From: a virus
Length of the DNA stretch: 35,874 bases
Reading direction: 5' to 3' (one strand)
Virus record (IMG/VR): IMGVR_UViG_3300042402_006268
Coordinates: 1 to 35,874 of that record
Shown: piece by piece, positions 3 to 22,487 of the stretch
How positions within the stretch are numbered: position 1 is the stretch's first letter
Layout of the letters: each line of letters starts with the position of its first letter
Position numbers and translations under genes: made by a program
Notes under the pieces: generated by a model
Seen by the model: only the letters and a program-made list of their open reading frames with translations
What the model was told of the DNA's origin: nothing
Database searches by the model: none

Positions 3-3000
3 CCTGGTAGTGGTAACTACAATGTAACTACAGAGTTTATTGGTAGAACTGCTGCAATTTTGTCGGATCTGACCATTTCACAATTGTTTACACTACCACA
101 TATGTATAACTCAATATTAACGGTTGAGGGACAGACTGCGGGTAACACACAACAACAAATTGGTGCGACGGCAACCACAGGAATACCAACTAATAGTAAT
201 TTGAGAATAAACACCACAAAGGGTCTTCAAAAACTCAATGAAGTTTATTCGATTTATGAATCGAGAGGTTTGATCGAAAAAGGATTTCCACGATTAACAC
301 TGAATGCTCTTGTTTTTAAACTACAAACGTTAGATAAATTAATAAATGAATCCTTTGGTAAACAAGATATGTCTGTATTAAGTGATATTGAAGAATACGG
401 AAAAATAATCACAGAATTCAGAGCTAATGTTTATGGTAATTTTGACGGAAACTGGTACACAAAATATATTGATCCAACAGATGTTATAATCATAGGAAAC
501 AAAAAGTTTTACGGTTTGAAGAAAACTCTTCAGGATGGTTTGAGCCAACAAACTGCGTTGACAGATTTAGACAAAATTATAAAAGATAATAAAAAAGAGT
601 TGTTAAATAATAAAACATTTGGTAACAACGGAACCTATACTATAAATGGTAAAACTCAACAATCTGAACTTTCGTTTAACTTAAGTATTGGAAATTTGGT
701 TGGGACAATTAATCCTGACGAGTTAACACCACAGGATATTGAACAAACTTTTATTATAAGGAAAAATAGACTTCCAAGTCCAAACGATAATTTAGAATTG
801 TTCGGGAATGAACTTAAGACTGAGTTAAGCTTCTCCTCAAAATATATAGATCCAAAAACCTTAGAAGTAGTTGATGAACCGAAACGTTTCTATATTTTTG
901 GTGAACCAGCATTAAATGGATCATCACCACCTAATACTTTTTTACCAATATTAGATGCTCTACAAAAAAACTTTTCATCTCAATCACAAAAAATTGAGGA
1001 AGAGTTGTCTAAAGCTCTTGCGGAAAAAATTAAGAACAGTGAAAATGGATTAGGATTTAATCCAACTATAAGAAACGTAATGGCGGTCATTATGGCCAGT
1101 GCTGACGCGTTTTTGAGATTGATGGATGAAGTCCACAGAGAAGCTTGGGAAGTAAGGAAAAACCCTAACAGATTACAGGCAATTATTTCGGGTAGTAAAA
1201 ACTTTGGTGTCGATAATAAAGATGTAGTACAAAAAGATGTTTCAAGTACTGAAAGTTTGAGTGATAACAACATTGTATACCCTTGGCCTCAATACTTTGA
1301 GGAAGAACAAGACGATAAAGGTAATGTTAAGTTTACTGTAAAATACCCTGGTGACCCTGAAGTAATTAACAGAACCAAAGGTTATCTTTGGGATTTGTGG
1401 CCCGAAGTAGAATTTACAGAGCAATACATCACGGGATCGATTCAAAAACAAGAAGTACCAGATCCAATTGATTACAATAACGAAATAGAGTTTACACAAT
1501 ATATTGGTGTTAATGCCGTTGAATTTCCTAACATAAATCAGCCATATCTTAACTTAACTGAAGTATCATTCTTCTATGAGATGTGGGAAAGACAGTATTT
1601 GGGTAGTAACTATACAAAACTATTCAAGGAAACGGGATACGAAAATGAATTGTATGCAGCTTTAGGTGAGTTTGAATTTTACAATATCAAACAAGCGGTT
1701 GAAGAATCCCCTCAACTACAAGGAATTTTGAAAAGATTTAAGTTCAATTATAACAATTTTATCAATTTTCTTAAAAATATATCTTTGGGTGGTGAGGGAC
1801 AAAACTGGAACTTATTTGTCAGAGATGAGTTTGTAACGCCATATATCAAAGAATATATAGTTCAGGATTTTGAACTTTATAGTGTTGCGACTTTAAGTGA
1901 AAACTCACCATCGGTTCAGGGTCTTGAAAGTTCGACCAAAAAGATTCAGGATTACATTGCAAGTAGCAAGTCCAATAGTGTATCGTTTATTGACTCACCA
2001 CCTTTTACAAATTTGGGTTGGGTTAAGACAAATCTTGCAAACGGTCAATCTATTGGTGTATTGGAAGATGCGAACCAAACAACGAAGTCACTATCTTTTT
2101 ATCAGGACAAGAAAACTATTTCGAACATATTTGATGATCCATACTATAATAATTTTTGGACTTCAATTGATTGGATGAATAATGATGGATCTAATGTTGC
2201 TCAGTCAATATTAAACATCAATACATTCCTTCAGTCAAATGGACAAGCATATCCAACACAATCTTTGGGTGGACTTTCCACTCAAACACAACTTGCCGAT
2301 TTCTATCAAAGTAGAGAACAGAAGAACTTCTTCCCAACGGAGTCTACATTGAACTATGGAAATGACTATGTAATTACCAGTGGGAACGTAAGTTCAATAC
2401 AGACAACATCACTATTCAATACCCCTTACTTTGCAAATGCGATTAACGTTGGCGCTGAAAAACAAAAACAAGGTGATGTAAATCCTTATGTTGGGTTGGG
2501 TTACCTTGCATTGAATTCATTGCCGCTTATCACCCTACGTGAAAAGTTGAAGGAGGTTAATTTAACCAACAAGACAATCACAGATTTGGATTATCTGTAT
2601 GCCACTTTCACTAAGTTTGCTGCGATTCACAGGATACCCTACGCTTGGATGTTAAAATACGGATCGATATGGCATCGTTACAAGACATTTATCAATAATC
2701 AAAGTGACATTTTGGATGACATTTGGACTGATTTTCCTTATTTGGAAAACTACGATCCAATCAGCCAAAATCCATCCACACAATACACGGTGAAGGACTA
2801 TAATGGTGGTACTACAAATATATCACTTCAGTTGTCCTTGAATGTTACGACACCAATCAACTTGAATCACGATTCAATCAGTGCGGGATTCTACCCACAA
2901 CTGATCAATAATTTTTATTACTTCTTTGCCAATGAGGATTTGGTATCGGGGTATACCGCATCTGATTGGTCCAATGCATATTCACAATCTTTTAGAATTG

Positions 3001-5912
3001 CAAAAACAAACCAATCAACAATTGCCTTCGGACCTGGTAGTGATTTAAATGACACTGGTAAAACTTTCTCACAGGTTAACTGGTATCAGTTTTATGATAC
3101 GACTAACGATCCTTACTTGAAGTATAACTTATCTCAGGGTTATATGTTATTTCCCTCTACAGGTGCATTGAATTTCAATCAGGCTCGATTTGAATGTACA
3201 AATTCTACAGGACAGATTGTGAAACCATTCCTTAATAACCCTGCGGTTTACAACGGAACAACAAGAGGTGTTTGGTTGGCACCACAATTTGGTTATTACG
3301 ACAACTCGTTGATCGAAAGACCGACACCGTTACAGTATCTGAAGGTGGTATATTCTGCCACCTCACAACAGGAAGCATTCAGTATTCAAAGTGAAAGTGT
3401 GTACTCTTCAATTGAAGAAGTATTAGGTGTGTTTAAACCTGAGGTACTTGATTTGTTTGAACAATACTTCTTGAATTGGTGTAATCCGATAACGGAAGGT
3501 GTGGACACATCAGAGGTGACAATTCTGAGATCTCCATCGGCTTTCTTCTCATCTGAGGACTTGGGAAACGATTTGTATTACTCAAAATTATATACCCTTA
3601 TGATGAACTTCTTTATTGTCCCGAAAGTTCAACTTACAGGACAAGAAAATAAAGACGGGGCAATCCTTGCCACAAGTCAGATGGGTAGTATCACCACTTT
3701 CTTAAAAGGATTCTTCAATACAGATGTAATCTTAAAGTTGGGTAATCCAAGTAACTTTAGTAGAAGAACATTCGGAAGCTTTACGAACAACAGAAACCTA
3801 CAACCTGTAGATAAAATTAACTTTGGTCCTTATGTGAATGGTTCTGTACCAGGGGATGCGGGCACCACACTGGCTCAGAGCATCGGAGAATTCCCTGAGG
3901 TTTGGTCGGCACTACAAAACAAAATTGGATTCTCATCAATACCTGGTCTACAATATACAAACAGCGGGTCATACTATACCAACTTCTTTAAAGATTTTGG
4001 AATTGCCTTTACTGAAACAAACGTAAATGAGTTGTACCAAATCATAAAAATGTATGGTGGTGCAAAACTGGCAGACAACTCCCTGACACCTGCACAATTC
4101 TATAGTGCGTTCTCTGATTTCTTGACCCTTCAGGAAAAGTTCCAATTCAATGCGATGAACCACACATTCATCCAATTGAACAAGAACCTACCAAATGTAA
4201 CGGAAACTAGAGTCAACAACACAATATCATCATTGGATGGTAAAACAACCAAGGTGGAGTTGTGGGAAACGTTCAAAAATTTCAACGATAAATGGATCGC
4301 TGGTGGTGACTTCGAAACAAGAACTCTATTTGAGGATTTCTTGTTTATGGATAGAGGTAACAGAGATGTTGGTAACCAAATAATCGTTGATGTAATATCA
4401 CTATTAGGATATCTACAATCTAAAACTGCGACTTTCTCACTATATTCCTTGATAGGGGAACTACTAGCTAAAAACAATTTCATATTCTTTGCCCTTCCAT
4501 CATACGTAAACTTCTACGGAATACAAACAGCATTAAAAACGGCAGGAAGACAACTTGATCCCGAAATTGCAAACTCAGCCTTCGGAACATTCTTAACTGT
4601 AGACTATCAAAACTCCAAACCAAAGTTCCTTTGTATGTATGTTGACAAACCATCAGAACACCTTGATTTAAAAGAAAATCAAAGTGTTAGATTCAGAACA
4701 GATACATTCGATCTTAGACGCGGAGTTAATAATCCAATTTTGGAAAATCAAGAAAATAAAACTGATTGGGCGTTTTCAAATAAAGTTGTTGGATTTAATT
4801 TGGATTTTGGGATAAGAAATCAGAATATGTTTCAATCGATTAGTTTAAATCAGAACCAATACAAAAACACTGCGGAGACTTTTCAAGTGTTAACTAACTT
4901 AGGTAATCAGGCTAGTGGTGATAAAGTGGCACAACAATCACAATCGTTGTATAATGTATACAGATCAAGAAGTTATACTTGTGAAGTTGTTTCGATGGGT
5001 AATGTAATGATTCAACCTACGATGTATTTTAACTTGAGACACGTTCCGATGTTCACAGGTCCATATCTAATTACAAACGTATCGCATAATATTAGTGAAA
5101 ATGGGTTTAACACTCAATTTACTGGTGTAAGAGTTCCAATTTATTCATTTCCTGATATCGATTCGTTGGTTGTTTCAGTGAATAAGGATTTGCTGAAGAG
5201 ATACAAAGAAAGGTATAAAACTAAAGCGTCATCATCAGTAAGTGCGGAAAACGCAAGTAATACTACGAATTCTGGAACTACAGCAAATGGACAAGGATCT
5301 GCTATGGGTGTTAATCAACCTTGTAGAGATCTTACAAAGTATCAGGACCTTGATTTTGTTGATACTGAAAAAGTATTAATACCTAAAGCTGAAATCAAAA
5401 ATTATTTAGCTACGTTGACAAGTACTAGTCAAAACCTAAAGATTTATGCCTATGGAGTTGTCAACATTAAAAATGGAACCGCAAGTAATGTTGTAGTTCA
5501 GGGAAATAATAACAACTTATTTGGTATTGGTACTAATGTTGAGTGGAAGGGTAATGTTTCTACATTTATTTCGGCACAAACCTGCATTCAAAATTCAAAC
5601 GGACAAACACAACCAATTGCGGTATTTGAGAATTTTACAGATTCAATAGATTTCTTTATATCTTCGAATAATAACTTCACAGGTATAATAGGTAATCTCG
5701 TTAATTTAAATGCTAGTATCATTGAAGCTCAGAGTATTGCGGACGCATTGACACAATTATACCTATCGACTTGGATTAACCGATATGGGTTTGGTAAGTC
5801 GGCAGTACAAATACAACAGGAAGTTATAGGACAAATTGGTACAAAAATTACTCAAAAGGAGTATGATGAAATAAAAACCGCATTTTACAACGCTGTGGTA
5901 TATCTACAGTGA
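3..5912 (+). CDS. Giant virion protein, baseplate-hub-like C-terminal module (5'-truncated)
   Basis: The reading frame is already open at base 3, so the true start lies left of the window; the TTG at 60 is only the first start-like codon. About 1969 residues are visible. Most of the protein is unrecognised, rich in Asn, Tyr and Phe, with no signal peptide. Near nt 4950-5160 the pattern (basic/aromatic strand, MGNVMIQPTMYFNL, GPYLITNVSHNI, then FNTQFTGVRV) resembles the last beta-domain of gp27/gpD-type baseplate hub proteins, where a 'G-Y-V-V-H-I' strand precedes a 'T-F-G-R' strand. A Ser/Asn-rich linker (nt 5220-5320) follows, then a tail (nt 5320-5900) with NNLFGIG and FENFTDSIDFFI, like FlgJ-type glucosaminidases, but without the expected catalytic Glu. 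Phe codon choice flips near nt 4740, where the hub module begins. Likely a baseplate hub or tail component. Virion role fairly sure; exact function inferred. Confidence 0.75.
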   Translation, partial: PGSGNYNVTTEFIGRTAAILSDLTISQLFTLPHMYNSILTVEGQTAGNTQQQIGATATTGIPTNSNLRINTTKGLQKLNEVYSIYESRGLIEKGFPRLTLNALVFKLQTLDKLINESFGKQDMSVLSDIEEYGKIITEFRANVYGNFDGNWYTKYIDPTDVIIIGNKKFYGLKKTLQDGLSQQTALTDLDKIIKDNKKELLNNKTFGNNGTYTINGKTQQSELSFNLSIGNLVGTINPDELTPQDIEQTFIIRKNRLPSPNDNLELFGNELKTELSFSSKYIDPKTLEVVDEPKRFYIFGEPALNGSSPPNTFLPILDALQKNFSSQSQKIEEELSKALAEKIKNSENGLGFNPTIRNVMAVIMASADAFLRLMDEVHREAWEVRKNPNRLQAIISGSKNFGVDNKDVVQKDVSSTESLSDNNIVYPWPQYFEEEQDDKGNVKFTVKYPGDPEVINRTKGYLWDLWPEVEFTEQYITGSIQKQEVPDPIDYNNEIEFTQYIGVNAVEFPNINQPYLNLTEVSFFYEMWERQYLGSNYTKLFKETGYENELYAALGEFEFYNIKQAVEESPQLQGILKRFKFNYNNFINFLKNISLGGEGQNWNLFVRDEFVTPYIKEYIVQDFELYSVATLSENSPSVQGLESSTKKIQDYIASSKSNSVSFIDSPPFTNLGWVKTNLANGQSIGVLEDANQTTKSLSFYQDKKTISNIFDDPYYNNFWTSIDWMNNDGSNVAQSILNINTFLQSNGQAYPTQSLGGLSTQTQLADFYQSREQKNFFPTESTLNYGNDYVITSGNVSSIQTTSLFNTPYFANAINVGAEKQKQGDVNPYVGLGYLALNSLPLITLREKLKEVNLTNKTITDLDYLYATFTKFAAIHRIPYAWMLKYGSIWHRYKTFINNQSDILDDIWTDFPYLENYDPISQNPSTQYTVKDYNGGTTNISLQLSLNVTTPINLNHDSISAGFYPQLINNFYYFFANEDLVSGYTASDWSNAYSQSFRIAKTNQSTIAFGPGSDLNDTGKTFSQVNWYQFYDTTNDPYLKYNLSQGYMLFPSTGALNFNQARFECTNSTGQIVKPFLNNPAVYNGTTRGVWLAPQFGYYDNSLIERPTPLQYLKVVYSATSQQEAFSIQSESVYSSIEEVLGVFKPEVLDLFEQYFLNWCNPITEGVDTSEVTILRSPSAFFSSEDLGNDLYYSKLYTLMMNFFIVPKVQLTGQENKDGAILATSQMGSITTFLKGFFNTDVILKLGNPSNFSRRTFGSFTNNRNLQPVDKINFGPYVNGSVPGDAGTTLAQSIGEFPEVWSALQNKIGFSSIPGLQYTNSGSYYTNFFKDFGIAFTETNVNELYQIIKMYGGAKLADNSLTPAQFYSAFSDFLTLQEKFQFNAMNHTFIQLNKNLPNVTETRVNNTISSLDGKTTKVELWETFKNFNDKWIAGGDFETRTLFEDFLFMDRGNRDVGNQIIVDVISLLGYLQSKTATFSLYSLIGELLAKNNFIFFALPSYVNFYGIQTALKTAGRQLDPEIANSAFGTFLTVDYQNSKPKFLCMYVDKPSEHLDLKENQSVRFRTDTFDLRRGVNNPILENQENKTDWAFSNKVVGFNLDFGIRNQNMFQSISLNQNQYKNTAETFQVLTNLGNQASGDKVAQQSQSLYNVYRSRSYTCEVVSMGNVMIQPTMYFNLRHVPMFTGPYLITNVSHNISENGFNTQFTGVRVPIYSFPDIDSLVVSVNKDLLKRYKERYKTKASSSVSAENASNTTNSGTTANGQGSAMGVNQPCRDLTKYQDLDFVDTEKVLIPKAEIKNYLATLTSTSQNLKIYAYGVVNIKNGTASNVVVQGNNNNLFGIGTNVEWKGNVSTFISAQTCIQNSNGQTQPIAVFENFTDSIDFFISSNNNFTGIIGNLVNLNASIIEAQSIADALTQLYLSTWINRYGFGKSAVQIQQEVIGQIGTKITQKEYDEIKTAFYNAVVYLQ

Positions 5913-10593: not shown

Positions 10594-11967
10594 ATGAGCG
10601 ACGAAAAAAACTTTGGATACCTTGGAAACACATTTCAAATACAATTACTTAATAACATTATACTTTTCAAAGATTTTGCTGCATCTATCGTTGATGTATT
10701 AGATCCCAAGTACTTCGATAACCAATACTTCCGTTTGATTATGCAAATGATCAAAGAATATTATGTGAAGTATGAACACGTCCCAAATTTTGATACACTC
10801 GATCAACTCACCAAAAGTGAGATAAGTGCACCTATGGCTCAAAAAATGGTTTTGGATATGGTCAAACAGGTAAAGGATGCACCATTAGAAGGTCATAATT
10901 TTGTACAAGAAAAATCCCTGAAATTTTGCAAACAACAAGAGTTACAGAAGGTGATGACAAAGGCACAAAAGATTATTGATAAAGGTGACTTCGAAAGTTA
11001 CGACCATTTGGAAGAGATGGTTCGTGAAGCTTTACAGGTCGGTGAAATTGATCCAGGGACTAACGATGTGTTCAGTAATTTGGATGAGGTTCTACAAGAC
11101 GATTACAGACATCCAATTCCAATTGGCATTACTGGTATTGACAACCTTCTTAAAGGTGGATTGGCTAAAGGTGAGATTGGAGTAATCCTTGCACCTACTG
11201 GTGTTGGTAAAACAACAGTTCTTACAAAATTTGCCAATCACGCGTTTAATTTGGGTTATAACGTACTTCAAGTATTCTTTGAGGACAATCCGAAAATCAT
11301 CCAAAGAAAACACTTCACACTGTGGACAGGTATTGCACCTGACAACCTGTCACAATTCAGGGATGAAGTAATGGAAAAAGTTCGAACAGTTCAGGCTAGT
11401 ATGCCAAATAAACTGACACTAAAAAAATTACCTTCAGATACATTGACACTAAATCAGATTAAGAATCAGATTAGAAAGTTAATTGCTGAAGGAACAAAAG
11501 TTGATTTGATAGTGTTAGATTACATTGACTGTATTATGCCTGATAAAAACTTAGGTGATGAATGGAAAAGTGAGGGATCTGTGATGAGAGGTTTCGAGTC
11601 GATGTGTCACGAACTTGGTTTAGTAGGATGGACTGCAACACAAGGTAACCGATCTTCCATATCATCTGACGTAGTAACTACTGACCAAATGGGAGGTTCA
11701 ATTAAAAAAGCTCAAGTTGGTCACGTAATTATAAGTGTTGCAAAATCTCTCCAACAAAAAGAGATGAATTTAGCAACTATTGCCATCACAAAATCTCGTA
11801 TTGGAAAGGATGGTATCGTATTCGAAAACTGTAAATTTGATAACGAAATGATTGTTATTGATACTGAACAAAGTGTCACCTTCTTAGGTCTTGAAGAACA
11901 AAAAGAAGAAAAAAACAAACTACGTATCAAAGAACTGTTGGAGAGAAGAAAACAACAAACAACTTAA
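10594..11967 (+). CDS. 41: DnaB/gp41-like replicative DNA helicase
   Basis: A hexameric 5'-3' helicase for the replication fork. In the 457 aa, the N-terminal helical domain (about 1-150; FGYLGNTFQIQLLNNIILF, LDPKYFDNQYFRLIMQMI) is that of DnaB/gp41. The RecA-like motor follows: IPIGITGIDNLLKGGLAKGE, Walker A APTGVGKTT (200-208), Walker B DLIVLDYID, a GWTATQGNR motif with sensor Gln, and ITKSRIGKDG before the last strand, as in DnaB. The C-terminus is highly charged (EEQKEEKNKLRIKELLERRK). Length is close to T4 gp41 (475 aa). A primase partner is expected but is not in the window. The gene has its own candidate promoter and ends 18 bases before nrdB. Confidence 0.93.
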   Translation: MSDEKNFGYLGNTFQIQLLNNIILFKDFAASIVDVLDPKYFDNQYFRLIMQMIKEYYVKYEHVPNFDTLDQLTKSEISAPMAQKMVLDMVKQVKDAPLEGHNFVQEKSLKFCKQQELQKVMTKAQKIIDKGDFESYDHLEEMVREALQVGEIDPGTNDVFSNLDEVLQDDYRHPIPIGITGIDNLLKGGLAKGEIGVILAPTGVGKTTVLTKFANHAFNLGYNVLQVFFEDNPKIIQRKHFTLWTGIAPDNLSQFRDEVMEKVRTVQASMPNKLTLKKLPSDTLTLNQIKNQIRKLIAEGTKVDLIVLDYIDCIMPDKNLGDEWKSEGSVMRGFESMCHELGLVGWTATQGNRSSISSDVVTTDQMGGSIKKAQVGHVIISVAKSLQQKEMNLATIAITKSRIGKDGIVFENCKFDNEMIVIDTEQSVTFLGLEEQKEEKNKLRIKELLERRKQQTT

Positions 11968-11985: not shown

Positions 11986-13269
11986 ATGAATAACAACATT
12001 TTTAGTATGGCACTAAAAGATCACCGATATGTGATCAAAAGAAGCGGTGAAAAAGTCTTCTTCGAATCTGAAAAAATAAAAAATGCGGTTACTAAAGCTA
12101 TGGCGTCAGTCGGAAAGGTTGACTTAGAAATGGCTGAAAAAATTGCAAGGATTGCAAAAAGAAGTCTTTTCAAAGGTGATAAAGATAGAGTTCCTCACGT
12201 GGACGAAGTTCACGATATGGTGGAGAACAAACTTATGGACAATGGTTTAAATGACGTGGCCAAGGAATATATCATTTATAGATCAAGACACAAACCCAAT
12301 ATTTTTCAAAAAAGAACAAATTTAAAACCCTACGAATACCCTCAATTAGTCGAATATGTTGATGCTATAAGACACTCATATTGGGTTCACACGGAGTTCA
12401 ATTTTACTTCCGATATTCAAGACTTTAAAGTTCACCTTTCTGAAAAAGAACAAAGTGCGGTACAAAGAGCAATGTTGGCGATTTCACAAATTGAAATAGC
12501 GGTAAAATCTTTTTGGGGGGACATCTTCAAGAAACTACCAAAACCTGAAATCGGGAATGTCGGGGCTACCTTTGCAGAATCAGAAGTAAGACACGCGGAT
12601 GCGTACTCACATTTGATTCAACTACTTGGTTTGAATAAAGAGTTCGAAAATATCCTTGAAGTACCAGCAATTCGCAGAAGAATCAAATACTTGGAAAAAA
12701 CAATTCACAATTCTAAATCTGTTGAAAATCAAGATTATTTTGAATCTGTAGTATTGTTTTCGATGTTTGTCGAGAATGTATCACTATTTTCTCAGTTTTT
12801 GGTTATTATGTCATTCAACAAACATAAAAATGTTTTGAAAGGTATAAGTAATGCGGTTGAGGCCACATCTAAAGAAGAAAATATTCACGCAGGTTTTGGA
12901 TTCGATTTGGTTAATTTAATCAAGGAAGAAAATCCAACTTGGTGGAATGAAGAATTAATTGAAGATTTGATTGATGCGACAAAAGATGCTTACGAAGCGG
13001 AATCTGAAATTGTTGATTGGATTTTTGAAAAAGGTGATCTTTCTTTCCTAACGAAGGCACAAACAATGGAATTTATCAAACATAGATTTAATACCTCCTT
13101 GAATTCTATTGGAATTGATAGTATATTTGAAATCAATCAACCTTTGTTGGAAACAACTGAATGGTTTGATGATGAAATTTTAACAACGAAACACACCGAT
13201 TTCTTTAATAAAAGAAGTATCAATTACAGTAAGAAATCGAAATCGATAACAATGAATGATTTATTTTAA
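11986..13269 (+). CDS. nrdB: Ribonucleotide reductase radical-generating subunit NrdB with N-terminal ATP-cone
   Basis: This class I R2 subunit makes the radical that NrdA uses to convert NDPs to dNDPs. Residues about 14-103 form a full ATP-cone (VIKRSGEKVFFESEKIKNAV ... VHDMVENKLM ... AKEYIIYRSRHK), the allosteric switch normally found on NrdA. The ferritin-like R2 domain follows, with metal ligands that fit Glu170, Glu200, His203 (SEVRH), Glu263 (FVENVSLF), Glu298 and His301 (KEENIH). Tyr207 sits four residues after His203, where the radical Tyr122 of E. coli lies. The first ligand appears to be Glu rather than the Asp84 of E. coli. The C-terminal tail ends SITMNDLF with a Tyr nearby, as needed for docking on NrdA. 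Cone-bearing NrdB is known from Leeuwenhoekiella blandensis. The gene lies 9 bases before nrdA. Confidence 0.93.
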   Translation: MNNNIFSMALKDHRYVIKRSGEKVFFESEKIKNAVTKAMASVGKVDLEMAEKIARIAKRSLFKGDKDRVPHVDEVHDMVENKLMDNGLNDVAKEYIIYRSRHKPNIFQKRTNLKPYEYPQLVEYVDAIRHSYWVHTEFNFTSDIQDFKVHLSEKEQSAVQRAMLAISQIEIAVKSFWGDIFKKLPKPEIGNVGATFAESEVRHADAYSHLIQLLGLNKEFENILEVPAIRRRIKYLEKTIHNSKSVENQDYFESVVLFSMFVENVSLFSQFLVIMSFNKHKNVLKGISNAVEATSKEENIHAGFGFDLVNLIKEENPTWWNEELIEDLIDATKDAYEAESEIVDWIFEKGDLSFLTKAQTMEFIKHRFNTSLNSIGIDSIFEINQPLLETTEWFDDEILTTKHTDFFNKRSINYSKKSKSITMNDLF

Positions 13270-13278
13270 TATATAGAT

Positions 13279-14985
13279 ATGGAAGATAGAAAACCTTTTG
13301 ATTGGATTAACGAAGAGTCTGTTACTTTTCTTCGTAGAGGATATTTGAGTGAGGGTGAAGAACCTTTAGAAAGAATTATGACGATAGCAAAACACGCTGA
13401 AGAACTTTTGGGTATGAAGGGTTTTGCCGATAAATTTTATGAGTATATGGGTAAAGGTTGGTATTCTTTATCTTCTCCTGTATGGGCTAACTTCGGTAAA
13501 AAAAGAGGTTTACCGGTTAGTTGTTTTGGATCAAACATTGGAGACAATATTGAGTCCATTCTTTACACTCAGGCCGAAGTTGGTCAAATGAGTAAAATGG
13601 GTGGAGGTACCTCAGGATATTTTGGAAACATTCGTGGTAGAGGCGCAGAAATCACCGACAATGGACAAGCACCAGGATCAGTTCATTTTATGAACCTATT
13701 CCAAAGTGTGGTCGATAACATTTCACAGGGGTCTACCCGTAGAGGTCGTTTTTCACCGTATTTACCAGTGGAACATCCCGATATTATGGAGTTCTTGGAA
13801 ATCGGAACAGAAGGGTTTCCAATTCAAGAGTTGACTCACGCGGTTACTGTTACCGATGAGTTTATGAATGATATGATTGCCGGTGACAAAAAGAAAAGAG
13901 CTATTTGGGCTAAGATCATTCAACGAAGAGGTGAGATTGGTTATCCATACATTATGTTCACCGATACAATGAACAAAAATGCTCCCGAGGTTTATAAGGA
14001 CAAAGAAATGAAAATTTATAACTCAAACTTGTGTTCCGAAATTGCACTTCACAACTCAGAAGAGGAATCTTTTGTCTGTGTATTGTCATCTATGAATCTT
14101 CTTCACTATGATGAGTGGAAGGACACAGACGCGATTGAGTTGATGGTTTACTTCCTTGATGTTGTTGTGACAGAGTTCATCACCAAAATTGATGAGATTA
14201 GAAATAATGGAACTATTGAGGGTCAAAGAGCATTCTTCTACCTTGAAAAGGCATACAATTTTGCTAAAAGACAAAGAGCACTCGGTTTGGGTGTATTGGG
14301 ATGGCACTCACTTCTTCAGTCTAAGGGACTTCCTTTTGATAGTAAGGACAGTGCGAGATTGAATGTAGAAGTTTTTAAACTAATAAAAGAAAAGTCATAC
14401 GAGGCTTCTGCCACTTTGGCTAAAATGTTTGGAGAACCCGAACATTTGATAGGATATGGGAGAAGAAATGTTACCTTGAATGCAATTGCACCGACAACAT
14501 CTTCAGCATTTATCTTAGGTCAGGTTTCTCAGTCAATTGAACCAATTTGGTCTAATGCTTATGTTAAGGACGTGGCTAAATTAAAAGTCACCATTAAGAA
14601 CCGAGTACTTCAGAAGTTGTTGGCGTCTATGAAAAAGGACACCAAAGCGACTTGGGATAGTATTAAACAACACGATGGTTCAGTTCAACACTTAGATTTC
14701 TTAACACAAGAAGAAAAAGATGTATTCAGAACTTTTGCGGAAATTAACCAATCAACAATCATCAACCAAGCTGCAGTTAGACAGGATTTCATTGACCAAT
14801 CACAATCACTGAACTTAATGATTTCACCTGATATGCCAACCAAAGATGTTAACAAACTACTTATGGATGCTTGGCAGTTGGGTGTCAAAACACTGTACTA
14901 CCAACACTCAATGAACTCAGCACAGGCATTCGCGAGAAAAAGACTCAATCTAAATGATTTGGTTTGTACTTCCTGTGAAGCGTAA
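13279..14985 (+). CDS. nrdA: Ribonucleotide reductase catalytic subunit NrdA, lacking an ATP-cone
   Basis: The catalytic R1 subunit, which reduces ribonucleotides. In 568 aa the active-site set is complete: Cys82 (LPVSCFGS), Asn250/Cys252/Glu254 (NSNLCSEIA), Cys267 (CVLSSMNL), the radical-path pair Tyr540-Tyr541 (KTLYYQHS) and the C-terminal redox pair Cys563/Cys566 (VCTSCEA), which is re-reduced by thioredoxin or glutaredoxin. MGGGTSGYFGNIR and GSTRRGRFSPYL are also class I signatures. The protein begins directly with the R1 N-terminal helices (FDWINEESVTFLRRGYL) and is much shorter than E. coli NrdA (761 aa): there is no ATP-cone, which sits on NrdB instead. No thioredoxin or glutaredoxin gene is in the window, so the host's may be used. 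A terminator follows. Confidence 0.95.
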   Translation: MEDRKPFDWINEESVTFLRRGYLSEGEEPLERIMTIAKHAEELLGMKGFADKFYEYMGKGWYSLSSPVWANFGKKRGLPVSCFGSNIGDNIESILYTQAEVGQMSKMGGGTSGYFGNIRGRGAEITDNGQAPGSVHFMNLFQSVVDNISQGSTRRGRFSPYLPVEHPDIMEFLEIGTEGFPIQELTHAVTVTDEFMNDMIAGDKKKRAIWAKIIQRRGEIGYPYIMFTDTMNKNAPEVYKDKEMKIYNSNLCSEIALHNSEEESFVCVLSSMNLLHYDEWKDTDAIELMVYFLDVVVTEFITKIDEIRNNGTIEGQRAFFYLEKAYNFAKRQRALGLGVLGWHSLLQSKGLPFDSKDSARLNVEVFKLIKEKSYEASATLAKMFGEPEHLIGYGRRNVTLNAIAPTTSSAFILGQVSQSIEPIWSNAYVKDVAKLKVTIKNRVLQKLLASMKKDTKATWDSIKQHDGSVQHLDFLTQEEKDVFRTFAEINQSTIINQAAVRQDFIDQSQSLNLMISPDMPTKDVNKLLMDAWQLGVKTLYYQHSMNSAQAFARKRLNLNDLVCTSCEA

Positions 14986-15074: not shown

Positions 15075-15539
15075 ATGGCAGACGGTCAAACATACGGTAT
15101 TAATTTTCCATTCAGAGATAGTCCTGTTGGGGATTACCTTTCTTTATCTGTAACAACTGAGGAAGAGATTAGAAGTAATCTTCTTCATCTATTGTTAACA
15201 AGAAGAGGTAGTAGATATTATCTACCTACATTTGGTACAAGATTGTATGAGTTTATTTTTGAACCATTGGATGGACCTTCTTTTGAAGCTATTAAATCAG
15301 ACATTAAAGACGCGGTCGGGGAATTTATTCCTAACCTTACGATCAACAATATTTCAATTACACCATACACTGACGATGCTGAACTAATCGGAGATTTAAA
15401 CGTCACTAATTTAGGTGTGGGGGGTGTTTACAGAGTACCTGGTAGAGGGACTGAAGAATATACTGCAAAAATAAGAATAGATTTCACAGCAGACGATATT
15501 GCTTTCGGACAACGAGATTTCGTAATTATAAATATTTAA
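15075..15539 (+). CDS. 25: Baseplate wedge protein gp25 (GPW_gp25 family)
   Basis: gp25 joins the inner baseplate wedge to the tail sheath and is conserved across contractile tails (T4 gp25, P2 gpW, type VI secretion TssE). The 154 aa show the family core: EEEIRSNLLHLLLTRRGSRY, then PTFGTRLYEFIFEPLD, then a short ferredoxin-like part with strands NLTINNISITPYTDDAE and a basic/aromatic final strand. T4 gp25 is 132 aa, so the size fits, with about 20 extra residues containing VTNLGVGGVYRVPGRGTEEY. It starts just after the nrdA terminator and lies six bases before gene 6, the same pairing of gp25 and gp6 that builds the wedge core in T4. Confidence 0.93.
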   Translation: MADGQTYGINFPFRDSPVGDYLSLSVTTEEEIRSNLLHLLLTRRGSRYYLPTFGTRLYEFIFEPLDGPSFEAIKSDIKDAVGEFIPNLTINNISITPYTDDAELIGDLNVTNLGVGGVYRVPGRGTEEYTAKIRIDFTADDIAFGQRDFVIINI

Positions 15540-15545
15540 TACCAA

Positions 15546-17384
15546 ATGGCAAACAGAAGAATTTCCTATACTGAAAGAGACTTTGAAGGATTACGTCAAG
15601 ATCTTATCAACTATACTCAACAATACTATCCAGATACTATTGATAACTTCAATGATGCGTCTGTGTATTCAGTATTTCTGGATTTAAATGCAGCTATCGG
15701 TGACAACCTACACTACCATATTGACAGAAGTATTCAGGAGACTGTTCTTCAATATGCACAACAAAGATCATCAATCTATAATATCGCAAGGACTTACGGA
15801 CTTAAAATACCTGGTAACAGACCATCAGTCGCTTTGGTTGACTTATCAATTACAGTTCCTGCATTTGGTGATAAAGAAGACACACGTTATTTGGGGATCT
15901 TAAGATCAGGTTCACAATTTCTTGGTGCGGGTCAAGTATTTGAGAATGTATACGACATTGACTTCGCATCACAATACAACAATCAGGGGTTTCCAAACCA
16001 AACAAAAATTCCAAATTTTGATTCAAACAACAGACTAATCAACTACACGATAACCAAAAGAGAAGTGGTTGTTAACGGTGTTACCAAAATATTCAAAAAG
16101 GTTATCAACCCGTCAGATGTAACACCATTCTACGAATTTTTCCTCCCCGACAGAAATGTGTTGTCCGTAAGTGCTATTATCCAAAAAGACGGAACAACTT
16201 ATCAAACCACACCGACGTATCAGGAGTTTTTAAATCCATTGAATAGATGGTATGAAGTGGATGCTTTAGCTGAAAATACCATATTTGTAGAAGATCCAAC
16301 AAAACCAAGTGACAGACCTGGTATTAAAGTTGGAAGATACATCGAGACAGATACAAGATTTATAACAGAATTTACACCTGAAGGTTTCTTAAAGTTAACC
16401 TTTGGTAATGGAACCACAACCCCTGAACAACAATTGGCCCAGTTTTCTAGAACTGGAGTTCCTTTAAGAATTCAGGATTACCAAAACAATATTGGATTAG
16501 GTACAACCGTAAAACCAAATACCACTTTGTTTGTTCAATATAGAATTGGTGGTGGATTGGCATCTAACGTGGGGGTTAATGTAATCAATCAGGTTGGAAC
16601 AATTAACTTTTTTGTAAATGGACCATCAGAGAATCTTAACCAAACAGTTATTGGTTCACTACAGGTAAACAACGTAACAGCTGCGATCGGAGGGGCAAAC
16701 CAACCCACAATTGAAGAGGCAAGACAGATGGTAAGTTTTAACTTTGCGGCACAGAAAAGAGCGGTAACAATCAACGATTATAAGTCATTGATTTCGACAA
16801 TGCCTGGTAAGTTTGGTGCACCTGCTAAGGTATCAATTACAGAACAAAACAACAAAATTTTAATTCAAATTTTATCTTACGATACAAATGGTTCTTTGAC
16901 TGCTAATGTGTCAAATACTTTAGCTCAAAATATTGCAACATATTTGTCAAACTATCGTATGATAAATGATTATATTCAAGTCGAAGCTTCACAAGTCATT
17001 GACTTGGAATTTGAATATTCAATTGTATTTGATTCAACACAAAATCAGGGTCAAGTTATTACACAAGTTATCGATCAAACTCAAACATTTATGAGTCCAC
17101 AAGTCAGAGATTTGGGGGAGAATGTTAATATATCAAATCTACGAAGAATCATTCAAGATATACCAGGTGTTGTATCGGTTGCAGATATAAAAGTATTTAA
17201 TAAAGTCGGTGGACAATATTCATCAAGTGAAACATCTCAAAGATACTCAAACAATGAGACAAAACAGATTCAATTAATTGACGAAACAATTTACGCACAA
17301 CCAAATCAAATTTATCAGGTTAGATTCCCTAACAAAGACATCAAAGTTAGAATCAAAAATCTCAAAACAGTAGATTTCTCCTAA
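15546..17384 (+). CDS. 6: Baseplate wedge protein gp6 (Baseplate_J-like)
   Basis: gp6 forms the ring of dimers at the centre of the baseplate wedge. The 612 aa (T4 gp6: 660) carry the family's start: ERDFEGLRQDLINYTQQYYP, FNDASVYSVFLDLNAAIGD, a YHIDRSIQETVL helix, and an AQQRSSIYNIARTYGLKIPG segment. The C-terminal half has the baseplate J core near residue 397 on (AAQKRAVTINDYKSLISTMP, KVSITEQNNKILIQILSYDT, LAQNIATYLSNYRMINDYIQ). A large insertion (about 100-390) holds beta-strand-rich sequence typical of gp6 of large myoviruses. It sits directly after gene 25. No cysteine cluster or membrane segment. It ends 69 bases before the next gene, with no clear terminator. Confidence 0.92.
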   Translation: MANRRISYTERDFEGLRQDLINYTQQYYPDTIDNFNDASVYSVFLDLNAAIGDNLHYHIDRSIQETVLQYAQQRSSIYNIARTYGLKIPGNRPSVALVDLSITVPAFGDKEDTRYLGILRSGSQFLGAGQVFENVYDIDFASQYNNQGFPNQTKIPNFDSNNRLINYTITKREVVVNGVTKIFKKVINPSDVTPFYEFFLPDRNVLSVSAIIQKDGTTYQTTPTYQEFLNPLNRWYEVDALAENTIFVEDPTKPSDRPGIKVGRYIETDTRFITEFTPEGFLKLTFGNGTTTPEQQLAQFSRTGVPLRIQDYQNNIGLGTTVKPNTTLFVQYRIGGGLASNVGVNVINQVGTINFFVNGPSENLNQTVIGSLQVNNVTAAIGGANQPTIEEARQMVSFNFAAQKRAVTINDYKSLISTMPGKFGAPAKVSITEQNNKILIQILSYDTNGSLTANVSNTLAQNIATYLSNYRMINDYIQVEASQVIDLEFEYSIVFDSTQNQGQVITQVIDQTQTFMSPQVRDLGENVNISNLRRIIQDIPGVVSVADIKVFNKVGGQYSSSETSQRYSNNETKQIQLIDETIYAQPNQIYQVRFPNKDIKVRIKNLKTVDFS

Positions 17385-17453: not shown

Positions 17454-20400
17454 ATGCCGAAATCTTATAGAATTAGAACACAACCTGGTGTTGATAAGTC
17501 GATACAAGTACAAGTAGAACAAGATTTTGATTTTCTTGAAATTCTTTCCTTGAAATTAAGACAGGAAGATGTTTATACTAGATTCTGTGCGGACTATGGT
17601 GTTGTTGTTGGACGAGTTTTTGCTAATGGGGGAACAGGTATACCGAATGCAAGGATATCCATTTTTATTCCTTTGGACAATTTAGATGCTGAGGATCCGA
17701 TTATATCGACACTGTATCCTTATACTTCTGTTGACCAAAAAAATGAAGATGGTTATAGATATAATCTTCTACCTTATCGTCCATCTTATCGTGGACACTC
17801 AGCCACAGGAACATTTCCTGACGTTCAAGATGTATTAACAAGAAGTGAGGTTCTTGAAGTTTACGAAAAATATTACAAATACACCACGAAAACAAATGAG
17901 TCAGGTGACTTTATGATTGTTGGTGTGCCTCTTGGACAACAACAAATTTTTATGGATTTGGATTTGTCAGATATGGGTTGTTTTTCATTAAGACCACAGG
18001 ATTTGGTTCGTACTGGTTTGGGGGTTGTAGAACAATTTGACGGAACACAATTTAGATCATCTCAGGATTTGGCATCACTTCCACAGATTGTAACAAGTGC
18101 TGCTGACATCGATGTGGGTAGTTTTTGGGGTCAGGAAGACTTATGTAATATCGGAATTACAAGACTTGATTTTGATTTGGAGGGTTTGGGTGTAAAGATA
18201 GAACCAACTGCCGTGTTTATGGGTTCTATTTTTTCTTCAGAAGATGCCGATTCAATTAGGAAAAATTGTAAACCCACAAGTGAAGGTGGTAACTTATGTG
18301 ATTTAATAACAGGTGAAGGTACAATTCAATCCATTAGACAAACGATACTTGTTGATGAAAACGGAGACCCTGTATTGGAGGAATTTAAATTAGCCAATGG
18401 TGGTAAGATTATCGATACTGATGGTGCGTTCTTGGTGGAGATTCCTATGAATATGGATTATGTTATTACCAATGAATTTGGTGAACAAATTTTATCAAAC
18501 GACCCGTCAGTTGGAATTCCAACTACCGGTAAGTACAGATTCAAAGTTAAGTTTCAAGCGGAAGTTGAAAGTGTACCCACACCATTTCAACAATTCTTAC
18601 CGATTTTAGGAACGGCACAAAGGGCCAATTTTATCATACCTCAAATCAGAGAATATGGGTGGAGTGGAACGTCTGCAAATCCAGGTATAGATCCTGATTC
18701 ACTTTCTAATCCCGACAGCCCAAATTATAATGTCAACTATACTGCAAACACTCAGTGGCAACAATACAATAAATCGTATTCTTTTTCAGTAGATTGGAAC
18801 GATTACCCTGACAAACCAGCGGCGATTGCCTGTGAGGATTTTTTCTATAAAATGAAATACAACAAGGTTTATACTCCATCTGTTTTAATTGACGAGTATA
18901 GAAAAGGTTCAGGAAGGGCTAGATTCATTGGAATCAAAGAAATAACAGAAAGAAGTTGTCGTACAACAAACAACCCTTTTCCGGTTACAGAAGGACTAAG
19001 AAATTTCGATTTAATATTCTTTTTGTTCAATATTCTTTTAACAATTTTTACACCTGTAATTTTGTCTTTAATTTTAATTGGTCACGTTATTTGTTTTATA
19101 TGGCCAGTATTACGATTTATTTTGAATGTTGTAATAAATGCAGTTATAGGTGTTATTTTCCTTATATGTTTGGCTATCAGGGCAATAACCTTTGGTTTAT
19201 TGAAATTAAAATGCTCAAGAATAAGAACGGTAAATATTCCCAAAGAGTGTCCTTTAACTTCAATACCTTTGCCCAATTTATCATATCCTGACTGCGATGC
19301 CTGTGATTGTGAATCAAGACCTGCCGGACAAGCTGAAAATTTACCTGAAGGTGTAGATAACTCGACAGTATTGTTTAATGCCAATCAATACGAATTTTAC
19401 GACAGATTGATCGCACTTGATGGTGATGATGAAATCAAAGAAAGTTGGATGGCAAAATATCAGTATGGTTTTCAATCATCAATGGCTGGATTCGATGATG
19501 GTGAAAATAACTATGATTTCACAAAGGCTCCATTTATGGATGACGATAGAGATGCAGGTGGAAACCCATTCACAAAATATAAAACTTGGTCTTTAGACAT
19601 TCCATTACCTGAGAGAATTAATCTATTCAACCTCAAATCGAAATACCACACGACAGGGTCATTTAACCAAATTGAGGTGAGGGTAAATAAAGATAATCCA
19701 TCGAATGCCGGATTATTCCACAAAGATAATGTTTTGGCAATTGTTTGTGATCCTGAAACCTTGAATCTTTTTCCTAATGGTCAAATTCTTACATTTCAAA
19801 ACGTAGACAATTCGGTGGATCCAAACATAAGTGGTTTTACCACAGGATACACTAAAACAGGTAACTATGGAGTGACTGTTGTTAATGCTAACGCTGCAAA
19901 TCCTGGTACCGCAGCATCAAGAACCTATCAAGTGACAGGTACAACAGAGGGTTTTGTACAAGATTCAAGTGGTCAGTGGGTAAGACAGTATAATTTTCCT
20001 GCCGACGTGGAATACTATCAAGTTATTACTGCACATACTGTGTCTTCATATACTGCAATAACACAATCAGTCGGTGGTGGTGTTCCACAAGCACCAAATG
20101 AGGCAGGTTATAATGCAGGTTCTAACCTAAGTTTTCTTCAAAGATATATCTTTGGATACCAAAGAGTTCAAAGGTTCGGTACTGCAATTAATGACCCCTA
20201 TGAGTATCCCGATGATAATACCACGGGTATTGGAGATACCGGTATGTTTGAACAAAATGGACCTAACTTTAGGTTGAATTCTGATTACTTAAATCACATA
20301 GTTGTTTTCTTGGTTAGGGGTGTTGATATGTACACAGATAGACAAGATATTGAATATGATTTATCAAAACTTTATGGTGTATCGTCGGGTGGTCCTAAAA

Positions 20401-22487
20401 TAAGAGGATACTATAAAATGAACGTACCGATACAACCGTACACTTCAGGTACGGATTGGAGATTACCAAGACACAATTTAATTGCTAATAACGCATCAAG
20501 TTCAAATGGTTTTCTATTTTTTGATAGTTGGACATTCACTCCTGGTACAAATTTCCAATCTTTTAACACAAAAAATCACTTGGATTATTCTTGTTTAGAT
20601 TCTTCAAATGTAAAAATAGGCAATTCTAATAATACGAACTATTCATCTGATTTCAGTAATACAAACCAATCACTTTCACTTAACAAGTCAGTGACATCTT
20701 GGGATACTATGATTAATTATGGTTCCCCCGTTGATGGTTACAGAAGTGGTTACCAAAACTTAGAAATTGTTGAGGGTGGTAGTGTTATTATGGCGAATAG
20801 TACTAGTACACCTGCGAGATCAAACTACAGATACTTTTCACCAACATATTTTACACAATATCCCACTGATACTTTACCAATGACCAGCTCATCGAAAATT
20901 GTTATGAGAGCTGAGAGACTGCCAAGTTCAGATGTTAGGGACAGAAGATTTGTTTTACATCAAAATGGTGCATTTGCGATGTATCAATTGAGTGATGGTG
21001 GTGAGTCATCTTTATTGGTCCCAACATATACAACAGGAACTGAAACAAATGGTGATCTATCTGATGATTTTGCGGAAGACGGCGGAAATGTTGCTCAAAC
21101 TGTTTTGGCTACATTTAATTGTGAAACTATGGTTCCGTTAAAATGTTACTCAGGTGACGGAGAAAATTTTGACGTAAGACCGTTGACTGACGATTGTTAT
21201 TACGTTGGTAATGCTCAACAAGGAGTCACAAAGATGTATAAGGGTTGTTACTACTTACTTCAAAGAAACTTCTTTATTGCTGCTGACTTTAACATATTCG
21301 CAGAATGGAGACAAAGGTTTAGATTTATGTTTGCACTTTGTAGGGGTGTTGTTTCTTTAACTTTCACTAATAATTGGATTAATGGTGGACTTTATATGTA
21401 TAGTTTCTTCAAAGATGACATTTATAATCAACCATTAAGTGCCACAACATATAATAGTTTACCCACTTACAAATATTGTAGAAATTGTGTTGCATTTGGT
21501 GAAACAAACAACCAATTCTTCTATAGGGCAAGTCCATATAATGAAGGAACGGATCAATTCACAGGTAAACCATCACCAACTAAAAACAACGGAGATCCAT
21601 ATAGTGCGCAGAACCTTAGACTTTTAGGTAACCCTACAACTTTAATGGACTTAGGACCAAAGGATCAATTGTTAGCTGAGGTTTGTTTAAGTGGTGATTT
21701 TGACGGATATGTGGCAAACCAAGTTCCGTCTACAACTTATCAAGAAACTGCGGACCTTTTACAATTATTCGCGATAAGTAGGTTGTCAAATTCAAATCTA
21801 CTTGAATTATGGACTAGTACAGGTGACTCTTCAATACAAAGTTTATTTAGTAGATCGAAAGACAGATTGGATGGTGATATAGTTCAACTTCTTAGTATCA
21901 ATTCAGAGCTGAGTGTAAAGCCATATACTGGTGACAATTATGGTGATAGTAATTTGTCATTTACAAACAACCCTGTGGGACCAACCTTAGGTCTGTTTTT
22001 CTCCGCGGATACGATTACGCGTGATTTGATAACACCAGGTAGGATTACATTCCAAGATTCTACAATTAGTTACCTAACGAATTATTACGGATTCGAAGAT
22101 CAAACGGTACCATATCAGGCTTGGAAAATAGACCCTGCAGGTGGAACAATTTTCGGTACACAATTGAACGATTGGAGTGCTAAATACAGTACCGATATCA
22201 CATTAATAAAATATCAAAGTGTTGATAGATTATTAGGTGGAAATACTTCATCTCAACAACCTACATTCCCATCTGAAGTGACTACACCTACCACTCAAAT
22301 TCCTGGTTTTATTTATAATTCTCAATCTACAGGGGGAATAAATCCGACAATCACACCTAAGAATACTTTGAGTGGTCCATTACCAGGATCAATGATTACG
22401 GGGGCACCTTTCTTCTTCTATTTTGGATTGAGAAGAGGTAAGACTGCTATGAATAAATTTATAACTACTTATTTGATAGGTGCGTAA
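17454..22487 (+). CDS. Large baseplate/tail protein with internal hydrophobic segments (1677 aa)
   Basis: Not a named family that I can recognise. The N-terminus (MPKSYRIRTQPGVDKSIQVQ) leads into a carboxypeptidase-regulatory-like beta-sandwich (VVGRVFANGGTGIPNARISI near 49-70 and KTNESGDFMIVGVPLGQQ near 143-160), split by an insertion. A second such pattern appears near 250-340 (VDENGDPVLE ... DTDGAFLVEIP). Residues 518-585 are almost all hydrophobic, with only Asp519, Arg554, Arg576 and Lys584 charged: room for two to three membrane helices. A Cys cluster follows (587-625, including CDACDCES). The rest is beta-rich, Asn/Ser/Thr/Tyr-rich virion-like sequence. The start has an AAAAGGA Shine-Dalgarno-like site, uncommon here. 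It begins the coupled tail operon after genes 25 and 6, which suggests a baseplate or tail-tip part. Virion role likely; membrane role inferred. Confidence 0.75.
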   Translation: MPKSYRIRTQPGVDKSIQVQVEQDFDFLEILSLKLRQEDVYTRFCADYGVVVGRVFANGGTGIPNARISIFIPLDNLDAEDPIISTLYPYTSVDQKNEDGYRYNLLPYRPSYRGHSATGTFPDVQDVLTRSEVLEVYEKYYKYTTKTNESGDFMIVGVPLGQQQIFMDLDLSDMGCFSLRPQDLVRTGLGVVEQFDGTQFRSSQDLASLPQIVTSAADIDVGSFWGQEDLCNIGITRLDFDLEGLGVKIEPTAVFMGSIFSSEDADSIRKNCKPTSEGGNLCDLITGEGTIQSIRQTILVDENGDPVLEEFKLANGGKIIDTDGAFLVEIPMNMDYVITNEFGEQILSNDPSVGIPTTGKYRFKVKFQAEVESVPTPFQQFLPILGTAQRANFIIPQIREYGWSGTSANPGIDPDSLSNPDSPNYNVNYTANTQWQQYNKSYSFSVDWNDYPDKPAAIACEDFFYKMKYNKVYTPSVLIDEYRKGSGRARFIGIKEITERSCRTTNNPFPVTEGLRNFDLIFFLFNILLTIFTPVILSLILIGHVICFIWPVLRFILNVVINAVIGVIFLICLAIRAITFGLLKLKCSRIRTVNIPKECPLTSIPLPNLSYPDCDACDCESRPAGQAENLPEGVDNSTVLFNANQYEFYDRLIALDGDDEIKESWMAKYQYGFQSSMAGFDDGENNYDFTKAPFMDDDRDAGGNPFTKYKTWSLDIPLPERINLFNLKSKYHTTGSFNQIEVRVNKDNPSNAGLFHKDNVLAIVCDPETLNLFPNGQILTFQNVDNSVDPNISGFTTGYTKTGNYGVTVVNANAANPGTAASRTYQVTGTTEGFVQDSSGQWVRQYNFPADVEYYQVITAHTVSSYTAITQSVGGGVPQAPNEAGYNAGSNLSFLQRYIFGYQRVQRFGTAINDPYEYPDDNTTGIGDTGMFEQNGPNFRLNSDYLNHIVVFLVRGVDMYTDRQDIEYDLSKLYGVSSGGPKIRGYYKMNVPIQPYTSGTDWRLPRHNLIANNASSSNGFLFFDSWTFTPGTNFQSFNTKNHLDYSCLDSSNVKIGNSNNTNYSSDFSNTNQSLSLNKSVTSWDTMINYGSPVDGYRSGYQNLEIVEGGSVIMANSTSTPARSNYRYFSPTYFTQYPTDTLPMTSSSKIVMRAERLPSSDVRDRRFVLHQNGAFAMYQLSDGGESSLLVPTYTTGTETNGDLSDDFAEDGGNVAQTVLATFNCETMVPLKCYSGDGENFDVRPLTDDCYYVGNAQQGVTKMYKGCYYLLQRNFFIAADFNIFAEWRQRFRFMFALCRGVVSLTFTNNWINGGLYMYSFFKDDIYNQPLSATTYNSLPTYKYCRNCVAFGETNNQFFYRASPYNEGTDQFTGKPSPTKNNGDPYSAQNLRLLGNPTTLMDLGPKDQLLAEVCLSGDFDGYVANQVPSTTYQETADLLQLFAISRLSNSNLLELWTSTGDSSIQSLFSRSKDRLDGDIVQLLSINSELSVKPYTGDNYGDSNLSFTNNPVGPTLGLFFSADTITRDLITPGRITFQDSTISYLTNYYGFEDQTVPYQAWKIDPAGGTIFGTQLNDWSAKYSTDITLIKYQSVDRLLGGNTSSQQPTFPSEVTTPTTQIPGFIYNSQSTGGINPTITPKNTLSGPLPGSMITGAPFFFYFGLRRGKTAMNKFITTYLIGA

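Follow-up and report, generated by a model that had tools for sequence, protein, structure and literature searches.

We found that the radical subunit of a phage RNR carries an ATP-cone of a distinct viral type, which is kept under selection. The DNA, from an uncultured phage (IMG/VR virus record IMGVR_UViG_3300042402_006268, positions 1-35,874; all 35,874 bases are referred to here as the window), is predicted to encode a complete phage class Id (NrdAi/NrdBi) RNR of putative manganese type, in which the cone is fused to NrdB and NrdA has none. A cone on NrdB in a virus is not new as such, since it is known in bacteria and some phages, and viral members of the group were already mentioned in the 2018 Leeuwenhoekiella blandensis paper; what is added is the viral cone type and its maintenance. 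We regard it as probable, though far from certain, that this cone is an overall-activity switch, most likely a less sensitive variant thrown by one dATP, and that selection has kept it as such. The features on which the argument draws, all on the + strand, are as follows.

10594..11967, + strand: DnaB-like replicative helicase, upstream neighbour
11986..13269, + strand: NrdB (NrdBi, class Id radical subunit) with fused N-terminal ATP-cone, open reading frame of 427 aa (Pfam, 5OLK match, AlphaFold2, Foldseek)
12028..12294, + strand: ATP-cone domain, NrdB residues 15-103 (PF03477, E 1.5e-20; cone fold in the AlphaFold2 model)
12211..12213, + strand: codon of His76, helix-3 inner-site residue (alignment; role from PMC12662201)
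12250..12303, + strand: helix 4 and shortened junction to the core, residues 89-106, YIIYR-SRHKP-NIF, without an Arg102 equivalent
12304..13182, + strand: ferritin-like metal/radical core, residues 107-399 (PF00268; 6SF5 superposition)
12493..12516, + strand: class Id signature Glu170-Lys174-Trp177 in a broken first bundle helix (alignment; helix break at 173-176 in the model)
13279..14985, + strand: NrdA (NrdAi) without ATP-cone, open reading frame of 568 aa (Pfam; NCBIfam TIGR02510 above cut-off)
15075..17384, + strand: gp25-like and gp6/J-like baseplate wedge genes, downstream neighbours (phage context)

The window holds one NrdB gene, and NrdA starts 9 bases downstream of it. Genes for gp32-like, UvsX-like and exonuclease proteins and the DnaB-like helicase lie upstream, and these, taken with the baseplate genes on the other side, mark it as a tailed phage whose replication and baseplate genes resemble those of T4. 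Comparisons with phage records gave no close isolate; a baseplate wedge gene shares 27% identity with Flavobacterium phage immuto and Microcystis phage Mel-JY01, which is too weak for naming a host. Two long open frames elsewhere in the window, one of 1950 aa (60-5912) and one of 1677 aa (17454-22487), lack a PHROG match, and the latter is also unmatched in phage records.

The position of the cone is supported by domain, structure and model matches, and an earlier note, made from the sequence alone, was right in placing a complete cone at about residues 14-103 of NrdB and none on the 568-residue NrdA. Pfam places the ATP-cone at residues 15-103 and Ribonuc_red_sm at 110-384 (E 4e-59) of NrdB, and on NrdA it finds only the lgN and lgC domains (all-alpha and barrel) and no cone. 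The best solved relative of NrdB is that of L. blandensis (5OLK; residues 9-427 aligned, E 1.2e-157), which is also matched when the cone by itself is used as query (E 1.2e-14). The AlphaFold2 model of NrdB (mean pLDDT 84.7) shows a cone fold at residues 15-103, with a beta hairpin (15-17/23-25) and helices at 28-42, 47-61, 72-85 and 89-101 (block pLDDT 77-93); with this model Foldseek matches 5OLK across cone and core (E 1.7e-34), and 6SF5 superposes on the core (TMt 0.99, rmsd 0.9). Wherever the locus of a cone-bearing NrdB also includes an NrdA (263 cases), the gene order is beta-alpha, and none of these NrdAs has a cone match. As a separate observation, one Bacteroidota genome (L344, G253) has an NrdB core and NrdA in one open frame of 933 aa (824 aa within the locus), which may be a beta-alpha fusion of natural origin.

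Sequence and model also place NrdB in class Id. The first metal ligand is Glu170 in place of Asp, as the earlier note had read it, and NrdB has Trp177 with Lys174 three residues ahead of it, the Glu/Lys/Trp signature of class Id/NrdBi (PMC6754362), in which the Trp is conserved and the Lys is a feature of the characterised subgroup. The remaining metal ligands are present together with Trp133, Tyr207 and Tyr414; Tyr207 is also present in L. blandensis, and no tyrosyl radical was seen in the class (PMC6754362), whose cofactor, expected here too, is Mn(III)Mn(IV). The model also shows, at 173-176, the helix break that sets class Id apart, and the nearest solved relatives by sequence and by fold (5OLK, 6SF4, 8DQ3 and 6CWO) are class Id enzymes. 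The proposed kinship with L. blandensis is supported. NrdA has the finger loop NLCSE at 250, a Tyr-Tyr pair at 540 and the C-terminal Cys pair CTSC at 563.

The cone itself departs from the bacterial pattern. In structures of cones that bind two dATP, the ribose of the inner dATP is held by a Gln on helix 3, which corresponds to His59 in E. coli (PMC12662201), and the outer dATP is held by a helix-4 Tyr and two Arg residues, +3 and +7 by our own counting after the YR pair (PMC12662201, PMC11226230); the +7 Arg is Arg102 of L. blandensis, there the sole protein contact to the dATP gamma phosphates (PMC5794259), and is equivalent to Arg109 of S. thermophilus NrdD and Arg91 of P. copri NrdD. We typed 261 cone-bearing NrdBs in an alignment-free manner, by the number of residues between the YR pair and the next [DNS]-aliphatic-F motif. 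In 100 of them (82 bacterial, 18 viral), helix 3 has Gln, the segment is nine residues long and the +7 Arg is found without exception (100/100), whereas in the other 161, the window's type (159 viral, 2 bacterial), the segment has five residues and the +7 Arg is never found (0/161). Because at most 80 loci were sampled per scan and few evolutionary events underlie the counts, they describe types and are not independent trials. The helix-3 residue of the window's type is His in 159/161 and Gly in the other two (L181, L182); by alignment, His76 of the window corresponds to Gln72 of L. blandensis, Gln79 of S. thermophilus NrdD and His59 of E. coli NrdA. The +3 Arg is not general even among Gln-type NrdBs, and some members of the window's type have no basic residue in the segment at all. 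When modelled by the same method, helix 4 has 13 residues in the window's NrdB as compared to 19 in that of Muricauda. By these counts, the window's lineage has lost one conserved contact that holds the second dATP in the bacterial cone, although residual basic residues (R101, K103) might replace the lost Arg. The earlier note's view that the nucleotide contacts look intact is thus correct for the inner site, with VIKRSG, KI and YIIYR all present, but not for the outer site, where the Arg102 equivalent is absent, nor for helix 3, where Gln has become His.

What is left of the cone is tightly conserved. Among 80 close relatives, the inner-site residues K18, R19, K30, I31 and H76 and the outer-site aromatic Y98 are invariant (conservation 1.00), and the equivalents of the tetramer interface (D77, E80, M84, K93, I96, I97, R99) are conserved at 0.95-1.00; interface conservation is not universal within the type, as a sister viral subclade (L229-L252) has Lys for the interface Asp. 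Pairwise dN/dS values (Nei-Gojobori) among the close relatives, from pairs that are not independent, lay at about 0.06-0.09 in the cone and at 0.03-0.055 in the core, both far below one, which indicates that the cone is maintained by purifying selection. Some other phages have not kept it. One cone-less phage NrdB (L176) is nested in Flavobacteriaceae both in the NrdB tree (98/89) and in the NrdA tree (100/99), and another (L195) groups with a Paceibacterota gene (98/89 on NrdB), and no cone remnants were found upstream of cone-less viral NrdBs including these two. Since such genes are nested among those of cone-bearing bacteria, it appears that the cone was lost repeatedly in phages but retained in the lineage of the window; when a phage loses its cone, this has been interpreted as adaptive for rapid lytic growth (PMC6370689). 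The question raised in the earlier note, why a phage would keep dATP inhibition, is a fair one: the domain is under purifying selection here and was dropped by other phages.

The oligomer states, nucleotide number, metal and dATP sensitivity of the window's enzyme are inferred, the oligomer states by homology to L. blandensis, the source of the mechanism and the interface residues (PMC5794259), and to Facklamia ignava (PMC6187632). With ATP in the cone, NrdB would be dimeric and would form an active alpha2beta2 complex with the cone-less NrdA; with dATP at the inner site, the cones of one NrdB dimer would pack against those of another through helices 3 and 4 to give an inactive beta4. The missing outer clamp, together with His in place of the inner Gln as in E. 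coli NrdA, would make for a one-dATP and/or less dATP-sensitive switch, and the shortened stalk would turn the cone relative to the core. Given that the outer clamp is lost and the interface kept, the simplest prediction is that a single dATP suffices to throw the switch, or that the switch responds less readily to dATP.

A caveat to this reading is that a cone does not guarantee inhibition: the class I RNRs of T4 and T. brucei have dATP-binding cones and yet are not inhibited by dATP (PMC3267527). One could thus envision a folded, nucleotide-binding cone that acts in ATP activation or assembly and leaves the enzyme unchecked, the behaviour of those two enzymes. The lineage-wide loss of the outer-dATP clamp would fit such weakened inhibition, and lytic phages have been argued to benefit from loss of the switch (PMC6370689). 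However, the cone-cone interface of the dATP tetramer hardly varies among close relatives of the window, which is hard to explain if the cones never meet, and we consider this, the main rival, possible but distinctly less probable than a working switch. A cone that acts just as in L. blandensis, with two dATP per cone, a beta4 complex and junction Lys, Arg or His residues substituting for Arg102, is a doubtful proposition: the highest identity and best fold match are to 5OLK, and the residue that stacks on the outer base, Tyr98, is retained, but the clean division of the +7 Arg between the two types, and the segments lacking any basic residue, speak against substitution. The altered outer site could also be taken as the mark of a functionless relic, which we find scarcely credible in view of dN/dS below 0.1, an intact modelled fold, an inner site conserved in 80 relatives and the clean removal of the cone where phages have no use for it.

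The earlier note also suggested that the gene was captured from a Bacteroidota host. Such a recent capture would be in keeping with the frequency of cone-bearing NrdBi in Flavobacteriales, and the nearest cellular genes to the window's NrdB (66-67% identity) are indeed in Bacteroidota MAGs. On a tree of the NrdB core alone, with the cone left out, however, the window falls in a 26-row clade (97/97) that is viral apart from two near-identical genes of 1.5-Mb Bacteroidota MAGs (L094 and L361), and these sit inside the viral clade; on the NrdA tree, they again fall within the clade that holds the window (18 rows, 100/100). The cones of flavobacterial genes are of the Gln type, and a single clade of all Bacteroidota cone-bearing NrdBs is rejected (AU test, p = 0.00016). 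The trees do not nest the gene inside Bacteroidota, and recent host capture is very improbable. We rejected the notion that L094 is a phage contig contaminating its MAG: it is surrounded by genes of cellular type (DUF5916, Cu/Zn superoxide dismutase, DUF6962, SRAP, methyltransferase), and the agreement of a second, related MAG further disfavours contamination. A clade of the window's viruses without the two MAGs is not rejected by the AU test (p 0.28), and we therefore do not claim transfer from virus to cell. The NrdB tree unites another viral subclade (L208-L252) with the window, but the NrdA tree sets it apart (98/90), a conflict that may reflect subunit exchange or tree error.

A tree of the cone alone gives three groups of NrdB cones, namely bacterial Gln cones, the Gln cones of Staphylococcus and Sporosarcina phages, and the His type together with Salicola phage, and it hints at more than one cone fusion. 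A single origin for the NrdB cones as a whole is not rejected, however (AU p 0.097), and the cone has only about 90 columns; we therefore do not claim independent fusion. The cones of the Staphylococcus and Sporosarcina phages (L082, L083, L085, L090, L091, L254, L259-L261) group with other Bacteroidota cones and not with flavobacterial NrdB cones, perhaps as a separate acquisition. It is tempting to suppose that viruses evolved a His-type, single-dATP cone of their own on NrdB, with a short helix-4 stalk, that it was selected and passed to a small Bacteroidota lineage, and that it possibly arose by a fusion distinct from that in flavobacteria, with a phage NrdD cone as one conceivable source; we put this forward tentatively and think it on the whole unlikely.

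Large uncultured phage lineages keep the NrdB cone under purifying selection, and other phages that encode this enzyme have lost the domain. The two types, Gln/Arg cones and His cones without the Arg, provide a comparative set for asking if phages tune dATP inhibition by removing the second site and not the domain.

Among characterised systems, L. blandensis NrdAi/NrdBi (5OLK, 6SF4, 6SF5; PMC5794259, PMC6754362) is like the window's enzyme in its N-terminal NrdB cone, cone-less NrdA, Glu/Lys/Trp signature, inner nucleotide site and helix 3/4 interface residues; the window differs in His for Gln72, a segment four residues shorter, the lack of Arg102 and its viral lineage. F. ignava (PMC6187632) shares a class Id NrdBi with an ATP-cone and the nrdB-nrdA order, and its cone is functional, giving beta4 with dATP, but it has an extra N-terminal glutaredoxin domain (Grx-cone-NrdB) and binds one ATP but two dATP per cone. 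Parallels are also found in phages. The window's NrdB has 81 matches among GenBank phage records that cover 80% or more of its length, most of the matches listed being Staphylococcus phages, and a profile confirmed cones in six (four staphylococcal/mammaliicoccal phages, Sporosarcina phage Lietuvens and Salicola phage SCTP-2); among IMG/VR relatives, the cone is present in 80/80 of the matches listed. Staphylococcus Twortvirinae phages, Lietuvens and SCTP-2 all have a cone on NrdB and a cone-less NrdA nearby, but the cones of the Staphylococcus and Sporosarcina phages are of the Gln/Arg type, and SCTP-2, of the His/short type like the window, is distant (48% identity); the SCTP-2 NrdA (L084 4300-6966) contains an intein with a LAGLIDADG domain. 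The cones of E. coli class Ia NrdA and T4 NrdA share the helix-3 His with the window, and that of E. coli binds one dATP (PMC12662201), but in both the cone is on NrdA, and inhibition in E. coli proceeds through alpha4beta4.
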